A stretch of 25,723 bases of DNA from IMG/VR virus record IMGVR_UViG_3300025687_000287, positions 1 to 25,723 of that record, one strand, 5' to 3'. The stretch comes from a virus. This document shows, one piece after another, positions 3,258-21,646 of this stretch. The notes under the pieces were generated by a model. The model worked only from the letters and a program-made list of their open reading frames with translations, was not told the origin of the DNA and did no database searches. Within the stretch, counting starts at the first letter, position 1. Every line of letters starts with the position of its first letter. The translations under genes were made by a program, and so were the position numbers.

Positions 3258-5840
3258 ATGGCAAAGTTTACTGATAAAATATCCAATCTCATAAACTCAC
3301 AAGTACCTGACTTTGTAGTTGAAGATCACCCAAAGTTTTTACAATTCTTAAAAACTTATTACACATTTTTAGAAGCTTCTGAATTAACGGTTACGTCTGT
3401 ACAGACAACTGAGGGTATTTTATTAGAAACTGAAACTGCTCAAAATAATGAATTAATTTTAGACGGTTCTCGTATTGATACAGATAGAACACAATTAGAC
3501 GCTGGTGATAAAATATTATTAGAGAGTTCTGCTTTTGGTAAATTTACAAGAGGTGAAACTATTACAGGTCAAACTTCAAATGCAACAGCAACAGTTTTAA
3601 CTGAAGACTTAGATAATAGTCGTTTGTTTATATCAGCACAAGATAAATTTATTATTGGTGAAACTGTTTTAGGTTCATCATCAAATGCTAGTGCTGTTGT
3701 AAATAATTACAAACCTAATCCTGTTCAAACAATACAAGACTTACTAAACTTTAGAGATCCAGATAAAGTTATATCAAATTTTTTATCTAAATTTAGAAAT
3801 GAATTATTAGATACTATTCCTGATACTCTAACTACAGGTTTAAATAAAAGAACATTAATAAAAAATGTAAAATCATTATACAGATTAAAAGGTACAAATG
3901 TAGGTCATCAAATATTTTTTAGATTACTATTTGGTGAAGAATCTCAAACATCATATCCAAGAGAACAAGTTTTAAGAGTATCAGACGGTAAATGGAATAC
4001 TTCAAAAATTTTAAGAGCTGTTGCTACAGTAGGTAATACTTCAAACTTAATTGGTCGTACAATTACAGGACAATCTTCAGGTGCAACTGCTGTTATTGAA
4101 AACGTATTTAAATTTCAAATTGGTGACGCTGAAGTTTCAGAATTTATTTTAAATGAAGATACTTTAAATGGAACATTTACTGTATTAGAAGAAATTAGAG
4201 GAACAGGTAGTGACGAAGATGATACATTTATTAAAGCTACTGTAACAGGAGTTCCTAATGCACCAACAATTACTAATGATGGTGCTTTATACAGTGAGGG
4301 TGATAGTGTAACCATAACCTCTGGAGGACAAGGTGCATTAATTCAGGTTGGAGAAGTTGGACGTGGTGGCATTACAGAAATAATATTAGATGATGTTGGT
4401 TCAGGTTATGAAATTGGTGATGATATTATTTTTGATAATACGAACACAGGTGGTGGTTCTGCTTCAGCAAAAGTTTCAGTTGTAAACGGAGGTTTTACAC
4501 AAGAAGAATCTACTTCAACAGTTGACGATCATATAATTTTAGAAGATGAAACTGTTAGAGGTGACCCTTACACAGGAAATAAAATTGTACAAGAAAGCCT
4601 TACTGGTTCAGGTGACATTACAGATATAAGAATTATTAATAATGGTTCTAACTATAAATCTTTACCAACAGTTACAGTTGATGATACAAACGGATCAGGT
4701 GCAGTTGTAAAAGCATTTGGAACTGAAATAGGAAAAATTGAGTCATTAACAATTGCAGAAACAGGTAGAGCATATGAAAATTCTCCTACACCTCCTACTT
4801 TAACGCTTGAAACAAAAGTTTTATATGTAGATCAATCAGGTAATTTTATTGCTAACGAAACTGTAACAGGTTTATCATCTGACTCTACAGTTGTAACAGC
4901 AACATTCAAATCTACAAATACATCTACAAACGTTTTAACATTAACAGGCGCTAATGGTATATTTGGTGAAGATACTATAATTACAGGTTCTACTTCAGGT
5001 GCATTTGTTACTGTTAAAAAAGTAGATCAAGCTACAGCAACAACAAGTGTTGTAACAATTTTAGATACAGCAGGTTCTTACATTAACCAAGATGGTCACG
5101 TTTCTGAATCAACAATGAGAATACAAGATAGTTTATTGTATCAGGACTTTTCATATATTATTAAAGTTGGTCGTTCTATTAATGACTGGAGAGATTCATT
5201 TAAACAAACAATGCACAGTGCTGGTTTTTACTTTGTAGGACAAGTTAATATTGAATTACAAGCAGACGTGCAATTAAGAAATATTACAACATTAAATTCT
5301 GGTGATGTTGGTACACCGATTGATAGTGTATTAAATACATTATTCTCTACTATCTTTGGTAGAAGATTAGGAACAACTACAGACGGCACTTCATTAAACG
5401 CAAGTCCTCAATTAGGTGTTGACCCATTATTTGATGATAGTACAACTGACTTCTTTACACCAAATACTAGAGATGTAACTTTAAACCAACATATCACTAT
5501 AAAATCTGCTGGTGGTATTATAAAAGAATTAACAGATATTCGAAGTAATACTACTAAGTTTGGCCGAGCTGTTGCTGGACCAAGTATGTTTGGAATCAAT
5601 AAATTAGTTTTAGGTGCTAACTATGCAAATCAAGTACAAATACAAGACTTGGAAAATTTAAGATTAACAGGCACATTAAATAGTAGTATAGATGGTGAAT
5701 TAAACAACTTATCAGATTTTAACTATAAAACTAAAACGGCATTTGCTATACCGAGTGAAATATGGCAAATTTCTAGTGATAGTTTTGATGAAACTTTAGA
5801 TACTTTTGACGAGGACACAATAACTTTTGACGCCGCTTAA
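3258..5840 (+). CDS. Large baseplate wedge/virion structural protein (gp7 position)
   Basis: An 860-residue protein. The N-terminus (NSQVPDFVVEDHPKFLQFLKTYYTFLE, about residues 13-39, with the DHPKF..FL..YY pattern) is shared by baseplate-associated proteins of marine T4-like phages. Next come paired GETITGxTSNATA-type repeats (about 99-113, 134-147, 266-280, 533-547, 572-586). Two beta repeats of the form I-I-x-GSGY/SNY...PTV lie at about 337-410 and 453-520. A conserved-looking block (QDFSYIIKVGRSINDWRDSFK, about 629-649) closes the core. It lies directly after gp6 where T4 has gp7 (1032 residues), so a wedge role is likely, but I cannot show sequence homology to T4 gp7 by eye. The ribosome binding site AGGATA precedes the ATG. 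A 55-residue ORF begins two bases after the stop. Confidence 0.75.
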   Translation: MAKFTDKISNLINSQVPDFVVEDHPKFLQFLKTYYTFLEASELTVTSVQTTEGILLETETAQNNELILDGSRIDTDRTQLDAGDKILLESSAFGKFTRGETITGQTSNATATVLTEDLDNSRLFISAQDKFIIGETVLGSSSNASAVVNNYKPNPVQTIQDLLNFRDPDKVISNFLSKFRNELLDTIPDTLTTGLNKRTLIKNVKSLYRLKGTNVGHQIFFRLLFGEESQTSYPREQVLRVSDGKWNTSKILRAVATVGNTSNLIGRTITGQSSGATAVIENVFKFQIGDAEVSEFILNEDTLNGTFTVLEEIRGTGSDEDDTFIKATVTGVPNAPTITNDGALYSEGDSVTITSGGQGALIQVGEVGRGGITEIILDDVGSGYEIGDDIIFDNTNTGGGSASAKVSVVNGGFTQEESTSTVDDHIILEDETVRGDPYTGNKIVQESLTGSGDITDIRIINNGSNYKSLPTVTVDDTNGSGAVVKAFGTEIGKIESLTIAETGRAYENSPTPPTLTLETKVLYVDQSGNFIANETVTGLSSDSTVVTATFKSTNTSTNVLTLTGANGIFGEDTIITGSTSGAFVTVKKVDQATATTSVVTILDTAGSYINQDGHVSESTMRIQDSLLYQDFSYIIKVGRSINDWRDSFKQTMHSAGFYFVGQVNIELQADVQLRNITTLNSGDVGTPIDSVLNTLFSTIFGRRLGTTTDGTSLNASPQLGVDPLFDDSTTDFFTPNTRDVTLNQHITIKSAGGIIKELTDIRSNTTKFGRAVAGPSMFGINKLVLGANYANQVQIQDLENLRLTGTLNSSIDGELNNLSDFNYKTKTAFAIPSEIWQISSDSFDETLDTFDEDTITFDAA

Positions 5841-5842
5841 TT

Positions 5843-6010
5843 ATGATTATAAATAGTATTAAAAACATTATTGTAACTAAAAATGATAAGATATTAAAGC
5901 TTGAGGAAGACTATACAATTGAAAATAATACTTTATTTTTCAACATTCCTCCTGAAGCTAATGATAAAATATCAATAATAAAGAGAGAAGATGTCGAAAC
6001 AAACAGTTAA
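5843..6010 (+). CDS. 55-residue stand-alone beta-module ORF
   Basis: The ATG is two bases after the gp7-position stop, and the frame runs 55 codons, overlapping the next gene by 20 bases. Residues about 6-49 follow the pattern of the C-terminal module of the next protein: a strand, a short turn, L-x-x-x-x-DYTI-x-x-NTLFFNIPP-x-A-x-DKISII. That matches DYTVSGTNLTFNTAPAASAEIQV in the 318-residue protein and two more copies downstream. It is therefore a single free module, or the remnant of a longer fibre gene. A TATAAATA box sits just inside its 5' end (5848-5855), so a transcript from that box would not carry this start. Translation would need read-through from upstream. No Shine-Dalgarno is evident. 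Confidence 0.5.
   Translation: MIINSIKNIIVTKNDKILKLEEDYTIENNTLFFNIPPEANDKISIIKREDVETNS
5848..5855 (+). promoter_or_regulatory. Late promoter box TATAAATA before the accessory segment
   Basis: An exact TATAAATA lies just after the gp7-position gene, inside the first codons of the 55-residue ORF and 135 bases before the fibre-like gene at 5991. It could drive the fibre/halogenase segment independently of gp25-gp6. The match is exact, but it lies in possible coding sequence in an A/T-rich genome, so confidence is moderate. Confidence 0.5.
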
Positions 6011-6947
6011 CGTAGGAACAATTGCAAATGACGGTACTGGTAGTACAATACGTGCTGGTGGTCAAATCATAAATGCAAACTTTACAGAAATTTATAACGC
6101 TGTAGGTGATGGTACAACAATTGCGTTTGATATTTCAGGTGCTACAGCAGGTCAAACTTTAGTTTACAACGCTTCAACAAATAAATTCGAACCAGGTACA
6201 GCGACTGCTACATCTTCTTTTACAATTGCTGGTGATGGTGGATCAAATCAAGTAATTACTACAAATGATACTTTAACTGTACAAGGTGGTACAGGTATTA
6301 CCACAACAGGTGTTAATACAGATGTTCTTTCAATTGCAATAGATAGTACAGTTGCAACATTAACAGGTTCACAAGTTTTAACAAATAAAACAATTAGTGG
6401 TGCTTCAAACACATTATCAAATATCGGTAATGCAAGTTTAACAAATTCAACAATTGCGATCGGTGGTATTACTTTCAATTTGGGTGATACAGACTCTACC
6501 CCAGCACTTGACTTATCAGACGCAACAAATTATCCTACAAGTTCATTAACAGGTCAAATTACAAATGCTCAGTTAGCAGGTTCAATAGAAAATTCAAAAT
6601 TATCAAATTCAATAATCACAATTGTTGATGATAGTTCAACAGCTGCTACAATAGATTTAGGGTCAACTTTAAAAATTGCTGGCTCAGGTGTAACAACATC
6701 AATTTCAGGTGATACTTTAACAATCACTGGTGCTTCATTATCATATTCAACAGGTACATTTACAGGTGACGCTTCAACAACTATCTTTACGATAAATAGT
6801 GGACATACAGTAAATAGTATTTTAGTTTTTATAAACGGTATTTGTTTAGTGCCTACAGATGACTATACAGTATCAGGAACAAATTTAACTTTCAACACGG
6901 CGCCAGCAGCGTCAGCTGAAATACAAGTAAGGTATTTACCAGTTTAA
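5991..6947 (+). CDS. Fibre-like virion structural protein
   Basis: A 318-residue, Thr/Ser/Gly/Asn-rich beta-repeat protein. The N-terminus (VNVGTIANDGTGSTIR...INANFTEIYNA, about residues 6-38) is the common start of many phage fibre and baseplate-attached proteins. A short GQTLVYNASTNKFEPG motif follows at about 54-69. The middle carries fibre repeats such as LTGSQVLTNKTI and IAIGGITFNLGDTDSTPALD, the second nearly identical to part of the 781-residue fibre. An IVDDSSTAATIDLG...LKIAGSG...TTISGDTLTI-type unit comes next. Residues 257-318 form the DYTV beta module found in three other proteins of the window. It probably trimerises as a short tail or side fibre. It overlaps the 55-residue ORF by 20 bases. 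Which part of the virion it attaches to cannot be read from sequence. Confidence 0.8.
   Translation: MSKQTVNVGTIANDGTGSTIRAGGQIINANFTEIYNAVGDGTTIAFDISGATAGQTLVYNASTNKFEPGTATATSSFTIAGDGGSNQVITTNDTLTVQGGTGITTTGVNTDVLSIAIDSTVATLTGSQVLTNKTISGASNTLSNIGNASLTNSTIAIGGITFNLGDTDSTPALDLSDATNYPTSSLTGQITNAQLAGSIENSKLSNSIITIVDDSSTAATIDLGSTLKIAGSGVTTSISGDTLTITGASLSYSTGTFTGDASTTIFTINSGHTVNSILVFINGICLVPTDDYTVSGTNLTFNTAPAASAEIQVRYLPV
6438..6554 (+). repeat. Fibre block shared with the 781-residue fibre, copy 1
   Basis: A 117-base block encoding 39 residues around AIGGITFNLGDTDSTPALD and DATNYPTSSLTG. It matches 23959-24075 with five amino-acid differences and is about 17.5 kb away from it. Confidence 0.78.
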
Positions 6948-6956
6948 GGATAATAT

Positions 6957-8090
6957 ATGGGAAGTATAACTAGAACATTAGCAAATAATTTAACTTCATC
7001 ACAAGGTGTTGATACTAATAATTTTAGAAATATAATTATCAATGGTGACTGTTCAATAGCTATAAGAGGCACATCTACTTCAGGTATATCTGGCGACGGT
7101 TATTATACTTGCGATAGATGGAATGTGGGTGCAGGTAGTTTTGGAACTTGGACACAAACACAAGAAACAGATGTTCCTTCTGGTCAAGGTTTTACAAATT
7201 CAATTAAAATGGATTGTACAACTGCTCAAGCTTCACCAGCTGGTAGTTCTTTGATTTATTTAGAACACGCTATTGAAGGACAACATTTACAAAGAATACA
7301 ACAAGGTACAGCTAATGCCCAACCTACTACATTATCTTTTTGGCACAAACATACAAAAACAGGAACAAACATTGTTGAGTTATTAGACGCTGATAATTCT
7401 AACGCTGTAAGTGGTTCATATACTCAATCAGTATCAGATACTTGGGAATATTCAACAATAACTTTCCCAGCAGGTACATCAGGTACTTTTGATAATGATA
7501 TTAACCGTTCTTTAAGAATAAGAATTATAATCGGTTCAGGTTCAGATTACACTTCTGGAACACTTGCTACAACTTGGCAAACAACTATTACAAGCGCAGA
7601 CAGATATGTTGGGCAAGTAAATAACGCAGATAGTACATCAAATAATTTTCAGATTACAGGTCTTCAATATGAAGTAGGAAGTACAGCAACAGATTTTGAA
7701 TTTTTACCAAGAGAAATACAAGAAGCTAGATGTGCTAGATACTTTCAAAGAATAGGTGGAAGTATGGGTCAATACAGATTTATGCCTTCTACAGGTATGA
7801 GTTGGTCAGGAGCGGCACATTTAGCAACGCTTTATTTACCGTTTCCAATGAGAACACAAGCAACAACTTCATATTCAGGAACTTGGACATTATCAGGAAC
7901 TTCCGCTGACGAAGCTGGTTCTACACCAGGAGCGACATTACAAACAATGGACGCTGGATTTAGTTCTTCATTTCCTTCCAATTATCCTTACAGATTTTCT
8001 TGGGTTACAACAGGAGGAAGTGCAGGAAAAGGAATATTAATTTATACAGACGCTAACTCACCTACTTTGCAATTTAGTGCGGAGCTATAA
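6957..8090 (+). CDS. Putative receptor/carbohydrate-binding fibre protein
   Basis: A 377-residue protein of a type frequent in marine phages. A short N-terminal lead is followed by FRNIIINGDCSIAIRGTS (residues 23-40), a DRW (about 53-55), and a jelly-roll-like body containing TTLSFWHKH and SDTWEYSTITFPAGTSGTFD. The linker GLQYEVGSTATDFEFLPR (about 238-255) and EARCARYFQRIGG then lead to a separate C-terminal beta domain of about 115 residues. The body resembles carbohydrate-binding jelly rolls fused to fibres, and the C-terminal domain would be the variable tip. The role is probably host-surface recognition, inferred from family resemblance and the neighbouring fibre gene. It follows that gene by nine bases with an AAGGATAA ribosome binding site overlapping the stop, and precedes the 74-residue gene by two bases. 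Confidence 0.75.
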   Translation: MGSITRTLANNLTSSQGVDTNNFRNIIINGDCSIAIRGTSTSGISGDGYYTCDRWNVGAGSFGTWTQTQETDVPSGQGFTNSIKMDCTTAQASPAGSSLIYLEHAIEGQHLQRIQQGTANAQPTTLSFWHKHTKTGTNIVELLDADNSNAVSGSYTQSVSDTWEYSTITFPAGTSGTFDNDINRSLRIRIIIGSGSDYTSGTLATTWQTTITSADRYVGQVNNADSTSNNFQITGLQYEVGSTATDFEFLPREIQEARCARYFQRIGGSMGQYRFMPSTGMSWSGAAHLATLYLPFPMRTQATTSYSGTWTLSGTSADEAGSTPGATLQTMDAGFSSSFPSNYPYRFSWVTTGGSAGKGILIYTDANSPTLQFSAEL

Positions 8091-8333: not shown

Positions 8334-9773
8334 ATGAATATTGTTATTATAGGTGGTGGAACAGCTGGATGGTCAACAGCATTAAATTTTTCTTCAAAGA
8401 CCAAATCAAACATTACAGTTATTTCATCTAAAGAAATACCTATCATTGGTGTAGGTGAAAGTACAACAGGTTTATTTTCAGATTTAATTAAAACTAATTT
8501 AGACGAAATAGATTTTTTCAAACAAACAGGTTCTACATTTAAATTAGGAATTAAACACGTTAATTGGAAAAATGGTAACGACTATTTTAATTCTCCTTTA
8601 GGGTACGATATTGATGATTATGATTACTATAGATTATATCATATTGCTGAAAATAAAAAAATAAATCTAATTCAATCTGCTTTAATGGAAAATAATCAAT
8701 TACCTTTTTGTAATAATATTCCTATTGAAATAGAACACACAGCATATCATTTAGATACATTTAAAGTTGGTCAATATATAAAAGACTTTTTGTTGAAAGA
8801 AAATAAAGTAAATCATATTGAAGAAAAAATATTAAAAGTAAATAGAGATGAAAATGGTTATATAACAAGTTTAATTACAGAAAGTCAAAAAGAAATTAAA
8901 GCAGACTTATTTGTTGATTGTTCAGGTTTTAAAAGAGTGTTAAGTGATGATGTGCCTTTTATTAGCTATGAAGATAACTTATTAGTTAATAGAGCAGTAA
9001 CTTTTCATATACAAAACAAAGAGAATACTATTATAAAAAATTATACACAAGCAACAGCATTAAAACACGGTTGGATTTGGGAGATACCATTACAGCACAG
9101 AATGGGTTGTGGATATGTTTTTTGTGATAAGTTTATAAGTGATGATGAAGCTATACAAGAGATAGAAGAATATATTGGCGAAAAAATAGAAGTACAAAAA
9201 ATCATACCTTTTAATTCTGGTCGTTTAGAAAAGATTTATGATAAAAATGTTTTGACAGTTGGTCTTTCAAGTGCCTTTGTTGAACCGTTAGAGGCAACTT
9301 CTATACATATGTCAATATTTCAAGTAAATTACTTTATACATTGTTTAGAACAATCTGATTTAAAAAACTATAATAAAAACATATGTGATAAGTGGGACAA
9401 CATAAGAGATTTTATATTACTACATTATAGGTCGGAAAGACAAGATACCGAGTTTTGGAAAGAAGCCTCTTCAGACAATAGACTAACTGATAATTTAAAA
9501 TATATGTTAAATTTATGGAAACAAAGACCACCTATTGGTGATGATTACAATGTTTTCTCAAATTTAGCATTAGGTAACACTTTATGGTTACAAATATTAT
9601 TAGGAATGAACATATTAGATAGTTCAATGATAAAAGAGGACTTAATCAAAAGAGGTCTGTATGACAAGGCAGAAAATGAATATATTAAAGTATCTAAAGA
9701 TATGGAATACATTAAAAGAAACGCTATAAATAATAATGACTTTTATAAAAAATTGTTAAAGGAGATTGTATAA
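8334..9773 (+). CDS. Flavin-dependent tryptophan halogenase family protein
   Basis: A 479-residue protein of the tryptophan halogenase family (PrnA/RebH type; PrnA is 538 residues). These enzymes use FADH2 and oxygen to make HOCl or HOBr, which reaches the substrate through a catalytic lysine. Visible here: the FAD-binding GGGTAG (residues 7-12), IGVGEST (38-44), TFKLGIKHVNW (68-78) with Lys70 aligning to PrnA Lys79, VDCSGF (194-199), and the halogenase WxWxIP motif as WIWEIP (247-252). EPLEATS (317-323) has Glu320 at the PrnA Glu346 position and Ala321 where PrnA has Ser347. HYRSERQDTEFW matches the family C-terminal half. Catalytic residues are therefore intact. No flavin reductase gene is in the window, so reduced FAD must come from elsewhere. 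The gene lies between fibre genes and gp8. Free tryptophan, another indole or a peptide could be the substrate; sequence does not decide. Confidence 0.92.
   Translation: MNIVIIGGGTAGWSTALNFSSKTKSNITVISSKEIPIIGVGESTTGLFSDLIKTNLDEIDFFKQTGSTFKLGIKHVNWKNGNDYFNSPLGYDIDDYDYYRLYHIAENKKINLIQSALMENNQLPFCNNIPIEIEHTAYHLDTFKVGQYIKDFLLKENKVNHIEEKILKVNRDENGYITSLITESQKEIKADLFVDCSGFKRVLSDDVPFISYEDNLLVNRAVTFHIQNKENTIIKNYTQATALKHGWIWEIPLQHRMGCGYVFCDKFISDDEAIQEIEEYIGEKIEVQKIIPFNSGRLEKIYDKNVLTVGLSSAFVEPLEATSIHMSIFQVNYFIHCLEQSDLKNYNKNICDKWDNIRDFILLHYRSERQDTEFWKEASSDNRLTDNLKYMLNLWKQRPPIGDDYNVFSNLALGNTLWLQILLGMNILDSSMIKEDLIKRGLYDKAENEYIKVSKDMEYIKRNAINNNDFYKKLLKEIV
9725..9732 (+). promoter_or_regulatory. TATAAATA box inside the halogenase 3' end
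   Basis: An exact TATAAATA lies within the last codons of the halogenase, 72 bases before gp8, and is the first of three exact boxes in 64 bases. Being inside coding sequence it may be coincidental, but the cluster argues that gp8 transcription restarts here. Confidence 0.4.
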
Positions 9774-14200: not shown

Positions 14201-17200
14201 TATGCAAATATTCCATCATATTCGTCTGATACTACAGGTGAAAGATTTGAATTAAGAGATAGTTTAGATTTTAGACCGAGAGTAGATGACGCTTCAACTA
14301 TTCCTGGTGCTACTTCAGGTTCAAACTATGAAAGAAGTTATGACGGTACAGGTTCTTCGGTTGTTGATGTTATTGAATTTAATTCAGATGTTACAACTGA
14401 TTTTGAATATTACTTAAATAGAATTGATAAAATCTTTATTACAAGAGAAGGACAATTAAAAGTTTTAAAAGGAGCTTCTGCTGTAAGTCCATTAGAACCA
14501 GGTAATTTAGACGGACATTTATTATTAGCTACTTTAACTATACCAAGTTATACATTACAAACTTCAGATGTAAGAATTGAAAAAGAAGATAATAGACGTT
14601 ACACAATGAGAGATATTGGTAAGTTAGAAAACAGAATTAAAAATATAGAATACTACACTCAATTATCTCTATTAGAAGCAGACGCACAAAGTTTACAAAT
14701 ACAAGACGCAGATGGTTTTGATAGATTTAAAAATGGATTTGTTGTTGATAACTTCTCTGGCCATAATGTTGGTGATGTAGGAAACAATGATTACAAATTA
14801 TCTATTGATAGAGCAAGAGGTGAGGCAAGAACACCATTTACGGAAGATGTAATTGAATTGGAAGAATCAGATGATGATGGTTCTGTAATTACAGCTTTAG
14901 ATAGAACAACAGCTAATTATGCTAAAACAGGTAATTTAATAACTTTACCTTATACAGAATCAACTTACTTAGAACAACCATATGCTACTAAAACTGAAAA
15001 CTTAAATCCTTTCTTAATATTTGATTGGATAGGTGATATTACTTTAGATCCACCAGTTGATGAATGGAAAGAAACAAGAGTTGCACCTGAAATAGTAGCA
15101 AATGTAAATGGTACTTTTGATAACTTAGCTATAAATGCTGGATTAGATAACACAAGTGTTTCAGAAATACCTGTAGGTACAGAATGGAATGAATGGCAAG
15201 ACCAATGGTCTGGTAATCCAAGAACAGATCAAAGATGGCAAGGAAATAGATTAGTTCAAACAACATCACAAGATGTAGTTCAAACAAGAAGTGGTATTAG
15301 AACAACAATTGTTCCTCAAACTGTAAGACAAAGTTTAGGTAATAGAGTTATATCGGTTGCTTTTGTTCCTTTTATTAGAAGTAGAACAATAACTTTTGAA
15401 GCTTACGGTATGAGACCTAATACACAAGTTTATCCTTTCTTCGACAATATTGATATTAGTTCTTATGTAACTCCAGACGGCGGCGCATTGGGGGGTAATG
15501 TTGTAACAGATTCAAACGGTTTTGTAACAGGTACATTTGCTATTCCTGATCCAAACACTTCTTCAAATCCTAGATGGAGAACAGGAAAAAGAATATTCAG
15601 ATTAACAAGTTCATCTACAAATAGTGAAGATAAAACAGCAGTAGCTACTTCGGCAGAAGCTGATTATGACGCAAAAGGTTTATTAGAAACCACACAAGAA
15701 GCTATAATTTCTACTAGAGAGGCTAGAACAGTAAGACAAACAACAACTGAAAGAAGATCAACTAATAGACAATCAAGTAGAGTAATTGCACAAAGAGATC
15801 CTTTGGCTCAATCATTTACAATAGATGAAACTGATGGTATTTTTATAACAAGTGTTGACGCTTACTTTGCAACAAAATCATCTACTATTCCTGTTAAGGC
15901 AGAAATTAGAAATATGGTAAATGGTTATCCAGGAAATAAAGTTATTCCTTTTTCAACAAAATGGTTAAATCCAAGTTCTGTAAATACGAGTACAGATGGT
16001 TCAACAGCAACTACATTTACTTTTGACTCACCAGTTTATCTACAAGAAGGTGTTGAATATGCTTTAGTATTATATTCAGACTCAACAGATTATACAGCTT
16101 ACGTTGCAAGATTAGGCGATACTGTTATTGGTTCGGATAGAACAGTATCAAATCAACCAGCAGTAGGTGTATTATTTAAATCTGCTAATAATCGTACTTG
16201 GTCAGCAGAACAAATGGAAGATTTAAAATTTAAATTAAAAAGAGCAGAATTTGATACTTCAGCTTCAGGTACTTTAACTTTAACTAACTCAGAATTACCA
16301 GCAAGAACACTTGCTCAAAATCCAATTAGAACATTTAATGGTACAGGTGTTATCAGAATTTTCCATCCAAACCACGGTATGCACAGTACATCAAACAATG
16401 TAACAATTGCTGGTGTAGCGAGTGGTACTTACAATGGTATTACTTCAGCACAAATTAATGGAACATATACAAGTATTTCAAATATAACTTTAGATAGTTA
16501 TGATGTAACAACTGCTGGCACAGCAAACGCAACAGGCGATGTTGGTGGTACAACTGTTACTGCTACTCAAAACAGACCTTTTGATGTTTTACAATTACAA
16601 ATTGGAAATGTTGTACATCCAGGAACATCAATTACATCTACTTTAAGAACAACATCTGGTTCTTCAGTTCACGGAACAGAAACAGCATTTACAAGACAAG
16701 TCGCTTCAGCAGCTGAAACAGTTGTATTAGGTGACAACTTATATTTTGATAATGCTAGAATGGTTGCAAGTGGTATAAATGAGAAAAATGAAATTGGTAG
16801 TGGTGCTTCAACAAGACCTACTTATCAATCAATGTTTGTTAACTTAACAATCAGTTCTACAAATTCTAAATTATCTCCTGTTATTGATTTAAAAAGAGTA
16901 AATGCTTTTGCAATAGGAAATAGATTAAACAATCCTTTAGTATCATCAACTGATAACTTTACAGGCGATGGTTCAACTACAGACTTCACATTATCAGGAA
17001 CGCCTTCAAGTGTACATTTAATGGCAATTAAAAAAGATGGTAAGAAATTACAACCAATTGATGACTTTACAGTTGCAGGCACAACATTAACTTTAAATTC
17101 TGCTCCAGCAAATGGTTCAAAAGTTGTTGCTAAAATAACTAACACAGTTGACTATGAAGACGATACTGCTATTGAGGGTGGTTCAGCTGCAGGTGCTTAT

Positions 17201-18786: not shown

Positions 18787-19029
18787 ATGGTAAGATATAT
18801 ACCTGAGGCAAAAAAGGCAACTGGAATTGTTATAAGAAATTATAATGGCGATGGATCAACCTTAACTTTTGCTATAACTCAAGGAATGACCACTAATAAA
18901 ATACAAGTTGCTTTAAATGGTTTATCACAATCACCAGGTAATGATTTTACTATTGTGGGCAGCAATATTGTTTTTACAGGAGCTCCAGCCTTCTCAGATG
19001 TTATAACAGTTACGGAAATGCCGATTTAG
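18787..19029 (+). CDS. Stand-alone DYTV beta-module protein
   Basis: An 80-residue protein. After about 20 residues of lead, residues 21-80 form one complete copy of the beta module seen elsewhere in the window: GDGSTLTFAI, then IQVALNGLSQSPGNDFTIVG, then NIVFTGAPAFSDVITVTEMPI. The equivalents are the C-terminal 62 residues of the 318-residue fibre-like protein, residues 1892-1952 of the giant protein, and the 55-residue ORF at 5843. The pattern (N-G, P-x-x-DYT, L-F/V-x-x-AP, I-x-V) is found at fibre C-termini in marine phages. As a free protein it may be a detachable tip or joint. It has an AAAGGATAAAAAC ribosome binding site and precedes the glycine-rich protein by 14 bases. Confidence 0.75.
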   Translation: MVRYIPEAKKATGIVIRNYNGDGSTLTFAITQGMTTNKIQVALNGLSQSPGNDFTIVGSNIVFTGAPAFSDVITVTEMPI

Positions 19030-19043
19030 GGAGAAATTAGAAA

Positions 19044-20549
19044 ATGGTAAAAAAGGTAAGATCAGAAAATACAACATTTGGCAGCGATACTCATAGCTTT
19101 AAAGTACCAATGGGTACTACAGCACAAAGAGTTAGAGAAGGATCAGCAGAAGCTGGTCAAATGAGATATAATACAAGTTTAGCTGCATTAGAATATTATA
19201 ATGGTTCTTCGTGGGTGGTATTAGATGTGGCACCAGAAATTACAAGTATTTCTCCATCAACTATTGTTGAAGACGGTTCTACTACAACTGAAGTAACAAT
19301 TACAGGTTCAGGTTTTAATGCTGGTACAGCAGTTTCTTTAGTATCTGATGACGCAGCTAGCACAATCACACCATCAACTGTAACTTTTGTAAACTCTACT
19401 ACACTTAGATTTACTTGTAGTGCAGGTCAAATTAGTGCAGTGACAGGACTAGGTGCTGATTTTAATTCTGCTAAATCACCTTTTGATGTAAAAGTAACTT
19501 CAGCGGGTGGTAAAGCAAACACATTAGCAAATGCTCTTAGTATCAACTCACAAATTTATTGGATAACAGCAGGTGGTAACCTAACAAACACATTCTCAGG
19601 AAATAGATCAGTAAGCGCTACTGTAGAAGCTAGAGATCCAGAATCACAAGCAATAACTTACTCAGTTACAACAGGTTCTTTACCAGCTGGTGTTTCACTA
19701 AACGCAAACACAGGTGCTATTACAGGAACAGATTCTAATCCAGGTACAGTAACAACATATAATTTTGAAATTACTGCTACAGACGGAACAAATACAAACA
19801 ATCAATATTTTAATATTGTAAGTTATCCACAAACAACAGAAACATTTACATCCACAGGTACATTTACTGTGCCAGATGGACTAACTTCAGTTGATGTATT
19901 AGTAGTTGCTGGCGGTGGTGGCGGTGGCGGACAATGTAATTTAGGTGGCGGTGGAGGAGGCGGAGGCCTTATCTATAGACCAGGTTTACCTATTACTCCA
20001 GGTTCTCCAATTGCTGTTACTGTAGGTGGTGCTGGTAGCGGAGGTTGGAACGGTACTGACCCCTCTCAAAGAGGCGGAACATCTCAATTTGCTGCTTTAG
20101 CTGCTATTGGTGGCGGTGGCGGTGGTGCCTTTTCAGGTGGTGCTCCAGGAGGTTCAGGCGGTGGTGGAGGAGGTAACTCATTCCAACAACCAACAACTCA
20201 AGGTGGAACAGGAACACAACCTCAACAAGCAGGAGAATCAGGCTCTTATGGATTTGGAAATCCAGGAGGAACAGGTGCTCAAGGTAACTTTGGTCCTGGC
20301 GGTGCTGCTGGTGGCGGAGGTGCTGGCGGAAGAGGAAGTGATTTCCCAAATGGAGCTGGCGGCGCAGGAAGAAATTACAGTATATCAGGCTCACCTGTAG
20401 ATTATGCAGGCGGTGGCGGTGGTAACAATAACGGAGCAGGAAATGGCGGAGGTGGTGCTTGTGGAAATCCAGGTACAGCTAACCGAGGCGGCGGCGGCGG
20501 TGGAGATAGCCAACCAGGCGGATCTGGTATCGTTATCGTACAATACTAA
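19044..20549 (+). CDS. Glycine-rich adhesin-like tail fibre protein
   Basis: A 501-residue multidomain protein. Residues 37-60 (AGQMRYNTSLAALEYYNGSSW) are a short motif frequent in phage fibres. Residues about 63-155 look like an IPT/TIG Ig-like domain (ITSISPSTIVEDG..TEVTITGSGFNAGTAV). Residues about 172-262 resemble a second Ig/cadherin-like domain (LPAGVSLNANTGAITGT...YNFEITATDG). From about 267 (FTSTGTFTVPDGLTSVDVLVVAGGGGGGG) to the end is a glycine-rich domain with runs of five to eight Gly, closing with GGSGIVIVQY. Such domains may pack as polyglycine-II sheets; in T-even phages the glycine-rich gp38 adhesin tip binds outer-membrane receptors. Receptor binding is the likely role, by analogy. 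The GGN codons raise local G+C well above the neighbours. A strong hairpin follows the stop. Confidence 0.82.
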   Translation: MVKKVRSENTTFGSDTHSFKVPMGTTAQRVREGSAEAGQMRYNTSLAALEYYNGSSWVVLDVAPEITSISPSTIVEDGSTTTEVTITGSGFNAGTAVSLVSDDAASTITPSTVTFVNSTTLRFTCSAGQISAVTGLGADFNSAKSPFDVKVTSAGGKANTLANALSINSQIYWITAGGNLTNTFSGNRSVSATVEARDPESQAITYSVTTGSLPAGVSLNANTGAITGTDSNPGTVTTYNFEITATDGTNTNNQYFNIVSYPQTTETFTSTGTFTVPDGLTSVDVLVVAGGGGGGGQCNLGGGGGGGGLIYRPGLPITPGSPIAVTVGGAGSGGWNGTDPSQRGGTSQFAALAAIGGGGGGAFSGGAPGGSGGGGGGNSFQQPTTQGGTGTQPQQAGESGSYGFGNPGGTGAQGNFGPGGAAGGGGAGGRGSDFPNGAGGAGRNYSISGSPVDYAGGGGGNNNGAGNGGGGACGNPGTANRGGGGGGDSQPGGSGIVIVQY

Positions 20550-21304: not shown

Positions 21305-21646
21305 ATGGCAGCTAGAGCTAACCTAACTATCACACAAGGTGCAACCTTTTCAACAGATGTTACTGTTACTGATAATGATGGTGGCGTTTTTGATCTTACA
21401 GGTCATACATCTTATGCTGCTCTATCAAAAGGCTTTGCCTCAACAAATACAAGGACTGCTTTCACAACATCAAATAATACTTCAACAGGTGTTATTACAC
21501 TTACCCTAACCTCTCAACAAACTTCTACTTTAGAAGATGGCCGTTATGTTTATGATGTAACTATCGTAAATGATAGTACCAGTACGGTTACAAGAGTTGT
21601 GGAGGGTATTGCGACTATCATTCCTAGAGTTACTTCAAGTTATTAA
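21305..21646 (+). CDS. Small beta-sandwich virion protein
   Basis: A 113-residue protein. NLTITQGATFSTDVTVTDNDGGVFDLTGHTSYAALSK (about residues 6-42), then STGVITLTLTSQQTSTLEDGRYVYDVTIV...VVEGIATIIP give alternating strands with a DLTG turn. This pattern occurs in small phage structural proteins that decorate fibres or baseplates, resembling in outline the N-terminal sandwich of BppU-type proteins. It has no signal peptide. The ATG directly follows the previous stop (TAAATGG). A 60-base gap with a late promoter box separates it from the next gene. Confidence 0.72.
   Translation: MAARANLTITQGATFSTDVTVTDNDGGVFDLTGHTSYAALSKGFASTNTRTAFTTSNNTSTGVITLTLTSQQTSTLEDGRYVYDVTIVNDSTSTVTRVVEGIATIIPRVTSSY

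Follow-up and report, generated by a model that had tools for sequence, protein, structure and literature searches.

The locus and its module copies

The window, i.e. the whole 25.7-kb IMG/VR record that we analysed, is DNA of a marine T4-like phage; among cultured phages, Pelagibacter phage Mosig is its closest relative at the DNA level. Its genes follow the order gp25, gp6-like, baseplate wedge (860 residues), a 55-codon ORF, a connector fibre (318 residues), a 377-residue protein, gp8-like, a DUF4815 giant and a second fibre group that includes an 80-residue protein; the names gp25, gp6 and gp8 were taken from the gene order and annotation of Mosig. The original prediction held that one beta module is used four times here, at the end of the 318-residue protein, inside the giant and as the free 80- and 55-residue proteins, and all four ORFs are located where it placed them. 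The relevant features are:

3258-5840, + strand: baseplate wedge protein, 860 residues (PF23786, E 3.6e-14), with its stop 2 nt before the ATG of the 55-codon ORF
5763-5837, + strand: C-terminal 'FD' tail of the wedge, about residues 836-860, occurring when a connector gene comes next
5843-6010, + strand: gene for a free, strand-stripped module of 55 residues, recognised by HMM, hhalign, model, openness of the frame and slot
5848-5855, + strand: T4-type late-promoter octamer TATAAATA, within codons 2-5 (Ile-Ile-Asn-Ser) of the 55-codon ORF
5991-6947, + strand: connector fibre, 318 residues, with a T4 gp9/10-like N-terminus (PF07880, E 3.1e-7; PHROG 677, E 5e-23), sharing 20 nt with the 55-codon ORF
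6750-6944, + strand: full module at the extreme C-terminus of the connector, residues 254-318, found with the HMM of full modules
6957-8090, + strand: 377-residue protein (MGSITR...), presumed from gene adjacency to be a fibre tip that docks on the module of the connector
16949-17143, + strand: full module (HMM) in the 2089-residue DUF4815/VrlC-type giant (PF16075), residues 1889-1953
18787-19029, + strand: free full module of 80 residues, nearest to the C-terminal modules of cyanophage fibres
18832-19026, + strand: module part of the 80-residue protein, residues 16-80, found with the HMM of full modules

One domain in full and shortened form

The module had been described as a literal residue pattern. 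This matches the connector copy letter by letter; by eye, the other copies deviate, with DFTV or DFTI in the giant and the 80-residue protein, and with ND, DYTI, a missing G and PP in the 55-residue protein. The common origin of the four copies is supported by tblastn, HMM and hhalign. Within the window, tblastn with the 80-residue protein found the connector copy (41%, E 1.6e-12) and the giant's copy (29%, E 2.3e-6), and did not reach the 55-residue one. We built an HMM on six full modules, three from the window and three from cyanophages, with no member of the 55-residue family among them, and searched it against 4564 ORFs. This search recovered the 55-codon ORF of the window (i-E 1.2e-4) and at least 16 other matches of 50-62 residues; it found no fifth copy in the window. 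The 55-residue family aligned with the full modules in hhalign at 96.7% probability (E 4e-10, 42 columns).

We also scanned IMG/VR twice by DNA pattern alone (ATG plus octamer), leaving the protein out of the search. The 55-residue protein was encoded at no fewer than 9 among 118 and 13 among 120 of the places listed, and divergent versions retrieved in this way (L120, L254, L317) matched the full-module HMM with E-values from 7e-8 to 7e-10. Judged by sequence comparison, the four copies are one domain, of which the 55-residue ORF is a shortened form. The claim that this ORF is a single whole module did not hold, since its match starts only after some 12-20 profile positions and the first two strands are missing from its model.

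Among cultured phages, the 55-residue protein hit only a module within a 225-residue protein of Sf-FS3, and that weakly (E 4e-3). It matched PHROG 10330, a virion structural protein family, with E 3.5e-5, pairing residues 7-46 with positions 72-111 of 239 only, and Pfam searches with the family gave scattered weak matches and no common family. No whole relative of the 80-residue protein was found in IMG/VR by tblastn. The cyanophages of the Kyanoviridae (S-CAM22, P-SSM7, S-H38) carry its closest counterparts, with 43-48% identity over the match; there the module closes the C-terminus of fibres 1229-1320 residues long, whereas in the window the 80-residue copy is free. Tandem arrangements exist as well: the connectors of L028, L037 and L042 end in a pair of modules, and in another phage a wedge-like giant (L007, L008; open frame of 2437 residues) has about ten tandem copies at about 1151-2121.

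Predicted fold

The AlphaFold2 model of the 80-residue protein (pLDDT 90.1) has strands at residues 15-20, 27-29, 39-43, 54-57, 60-63 and 72-77. Its structural matches include the N-terminal domain of T7 gp17 (7ey9_a, Z 9.7, rmsd 3.1 over 70 residues; 7boz_b, Z 9.1, rmsd 2.6 over 68), the portal-tail complex of LME-1 (Z 9.5), CBA120 TSP4 (7rfv residues 172-250, Z 9.6, but with an rmsd of 7.2 over 73), 7rej_A (Z 8.8) and 5iv5_AC 150-249 (Z 7.0), which we read as T4 gp10 from its length and from the accessible text of PMC8825819. Foldseek returned no PDB match below 1e-3 for this model and 185 predicted viral proteins below that value. The full module is thus predicted to fold like the T7 tail-fibre attachment domain and like the XD2 docking domain of T4 gp10 and CBA120 TSP4. 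The model of the 55-residue protein (pLDDT 78.6, pTM 0.56) contains only the later four strands. Taken alone it is a poor query, with a best Z of 5.3 and Foldseek E-values of 0.5 or worse. Its matches to solved gp17 N-terminal domains (Z 5.3 and 4.9) are weak, yet they go to the same proteins as those of the 80-residue model.

Both comparisons come with differences. The T7 domain (PF03906) is likewise a fibre attachment domain with the predicted fold of the 80-residue copy, but it is N-terminal on its fibre, whereas the window's modules are C-terminal, internal or free, the 55-residue form lacking two strands besides; an N-terminal module occurs only in the MSYIG proteins of relatives. Sub-threshold PF03906 matches were obtained for 10 of 16 modules (best E 0.0013), the giant's module scoring 19.2 bits, under the gathering cut-off of 25.2. 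With the XD2/XD3 docking modules the window module has the jelly-roll fold in common, on the accessible text of PMC8825819, and both stand behind a T4 gp9/10-like baseplate-binding N-terminus (in the connector, PF07880 above cut-off). T4 gp10 and TSP4 have a chain XD1-XD2-XD3, whereas connectors here have a single C-terminal module, or two in the three tandem cases. In the accessible part of the same paper the jelly-roll acts as a trimer docking motif in which the first strand neighbours the last, and TSP4 and T4 gp10 dock other fibres; here docking by the module is deduced from gene adjacency.

Other assignments were tried and dropped: CBM_X2 (PF03442) at 24.9 bits against a gathering cut-off of 28.9, DUF4183, with matches sub-threshold or confined to few members, and 8i4m (gp28 587-653, E 2.5e-7) as a solved structure of the module, the distal fibre being unresolved there according to the accessible text of PMC10575957.

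The connector's module as a joint

We compared 35 relatives, the window included, that have a complete connector and enough DNA downstream; connectors running off the contig and the A-type loci L069 and L079, whose start was missed by the motif, are left out. Here, as in the octamer, wedge-tail, connector-type and wedge-tree counts below, near-copies and loci with identical wedges had been removed. When the connector ends in the module, a tip-type gene follows within 1-9 nt (11 of 11 loci). Behind connectors lacking it comes gp8 (19 of 24 loci) or a 106-residue MANN protein (the other five), which opens a MANN/MSYIG chain; in L011, L024, L025 and L026 the protein after the MANN protein bears the module at its N-terminus. 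The subtype of the module also goes with the type of the next protein, the ends YLPI, YLG and RLN pairing with MGxITR proteins (8/8) and the ends IKEF and IREF with MANxIKESNI or MVNKVKESNI type proteins (3/3). Ignoring ancestry, the association between module and tip gene is strong (Fisher p 1e-5); with the wedge tree taken into account, about 4.9 of 6 independent pairs fit the rule and none contradicts it, giving a p of 0.0625 to 0.125 that just misses 0.05.

There is thus good support for the full module being a dock-and-plug joint. The exchangeable joint of the original prediction fares well for the C-terminal copy, where presence and subtype of the module predict the next gene and the fold is that of fibre-docking domains. 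That the gene after a module-bearing connector encodes a tip is suggested by its place. The role of a tip, also raised there, finds no support for the 55-codon ORF, as it also occurs in L004, L070 and L023, where no tip gene follows the connector. For marine T4-like phages these associations amount to a sequence rule telling which connectors bear a tip, and which tip.

The wedge shows a similar association on its side of the junction. All 48 loci with a connector have its FD tail, and 13 of the 14 in which gp8 comes directly next lack it (L001, L002, L106 and L067 left out); 6 of 7 independent pairs on the wedge tree agree (p 0.031). This co-occurrence makes the tail a candidate dock for the connector.

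A small gene built over a late-promoter octamer

We collected 27 distinct versions of the 55-residue protein, 26 of them from one slot between baseplate wedge and connector. In 23 versions the octamer, a long upstream gene ending 2-3 nt before and the connector start are all present, in three only the octamer and the connector start, and in one (L108) none of these. Only 2-3 nt separate the wedge stop from the ORF, whose end usually shares 20 nt with the start of the connector gene.

The gene is patchily distributed. Among 80 loci retrieved by the wedge alone, 18 have it and about 12 are cut off before it could be seen; in sets retrieved with the 55-residue family itself, frequencies are inflated. 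On the wedge tree we count from at least six (64 rows) to at least eight (68 rows) gains or losses. Many relatives lack it, including L011 and L012, adjacent to the window on that tree, and the gene is therefore not essential. It occurs in 12 of 15 loci with a B-type connector and 3 of 15 with an A-type one, but a tie to type B found no support from independent pairs once ancestry was allowed for.

The octamer TATAAATA follows the wedge stop in 74 of 75 loci, regardless of whether they have the ORF. This is the late-promoter octamer of T4, with NATAAATA as the form in cyanophage S-PM2, on the accessible text of PMC2984593, and as in these systems it stands in exact form ahead of baseplate genes in the window. 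The window has eight octamers, all on the + strand and mostly close ahead of gene starts; by chance 4.7 would be expected on average over both strands, and eight were reached in 7 of 100 shuffles. The difference from T4-type late promoters is that, in phages with the free ORF, the octamer doubles as coding sequence of an ORF whose ATG lies upstream. The ORF starts MIIN or MSIN (ATG-ATT-ATA-AAT-A or ATG-AGT-ATA-AAT-A), with the octamer inside codons 2-5, and it is because the octamer forms part of these codons that Met1, Ile3 and Asn4 are invariant in the alignment. A promoter can thus become the start of a gene, and conserved N-terminal residues should be taken with caution as a sign of constraint on the protein. 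The displaced copy of L108/L109 retains the protein, with an altered octamer.

What the small gene may be

The original prediction considered that the free copies might be gene remnants left by fibre swapping. Such remnants do exist elsewhere: L011 has, by eye, a collapsed form of 21 codons, and L108/L109 have a displaced copy behind a truncated gene. One could hold that the 55-codon ORF likewise descends from the end of a module or connector and is open by chance, and its product does lack two strands. This we find improbable for the window's ORF. In 19 sequences its frame is free of stops, while the other two forward frames contain 124 and 173, and shuffled bodies stay open with a probability of only about 0.009 each. 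The constancy of the slot in all versions but one is also at odds with a remnant, as are the amino-acid changes, fewer than under neutrality in six close pairs (35 observed, 48.3 expected). That last signal is carried by two pairs, the other four not being significant singly, and among distant pairs, whose synonymous sites are near saturation, many dN/dS values are near or above 1. As far as sequence can tell, the 55-codon ORF is a genuine small gene and not a remnant.

A genuine ORF might still matter as a regulatory leader, its translation setting the amount of connector while the protein counts for little. It lies between the promoter and the connector start, usually with the 20-nt overlap, and in its presence that start is about 150-166 nt past the wedge stop instead of 25-48 nt. 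Yet residues of the module are kept centrally across divergent lineages (L317/L254, E 7e-10 to 2e-9) and the codon pattern is protein-like, when a mere leader needs no fold. Moreover, in 5 of the 27 versions the ORF stops 1-2 nt before the connector start, and no RNA element of Rfam matches positions 5500-6300. We regard the leader as unlikely, if less so than the remnant. The start just past the wedge stop could also suggest that the wedge is extended at its C-terminus through a frameshift or read-through of its stop, but the gap varies, most relatives having 2 nt and others 3 nt, so that the relation between the frames changes; in the window a stop lies 13-15 nt before the ATG in the ORF's own frame and no slippery run is seen, and all 27 versions keep the start codon. 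This makes an extension very improbable.

We favour, with a probability of about 0.55, a joint domain that plugs fibre proteins together and from which the 55-codon gene provides a strand-stripped accessory of the wedge-connector junction, made from read-through messages. The repeated element would be a beta-sandwich joint of the T7 gp17-N / T4 gp10-XD2 kind, plugging one tail-fibre protein into another, and the connector's C-terminal copy would dock the tip protein that the following gene encodes. The 55-codon gene would lie in the leader between wedge and connector, its first codons being the connector's late promoter and its last codons usually overlapping the connector start. The spacing of T4 late promoters places the RNA start downstream of the octamer, here past the ATG of the ORF, so that only read-through RNA should yield the protein. 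Its translation is then probably coupled to the wedge, by reinitiation 2-3 nt past the wedge stop, which would give wedge-like amounts. Modest support exists for the product being an accessory piece of the wedge-connector joint. The edge left open by the missing N-terminal strand might be covered by a strand of a partner, the connector or the wedge tail. This completion and the place in the virion are conjectural, the former suggested solely by the missing strands and by the first and last strands being known neighbours. One might speculate further that the protein lacks its edge strands on purpose and is an exchangeable, partner-completed shim between baseplate and fibre, a fragment slipped behind a late promoter with its dose tied to the wedge, but we hold this to be doubtful.

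The fold and its use as a joint are already known; what is new here is the strand-stripped gene embedded in a promoter. We met no report of it in the accessible parts of the literature on pelagimyophage fibres, small proteins and late promoters (including PMC7029224). It would be a small conserved structural gene that annotation from proteins only would probably overlook.

Neighbouring genes

The displaced copy (L108 3880-4280, L109 230-500) lies among oxygenase and transferase-like genes, directly behind a truncated start of 21 codons resembling the window's 113-residue gene at 21305. Between the tip gene and gp8 the window encodes a 479-residue protein (8334-9773), where the matching DNA of S-PM2 is annotated as tryptophan halogenase. 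The free 80-residue module precedes a glycine-rich protein of 501 residues (region 18787-20549). In S-CAM22 and P-SSM7, sericin-like proteins, which we take to be glycine-rich, are encoded a few genes behind the fibre ending in the module, and docking of an adhesin is possible.
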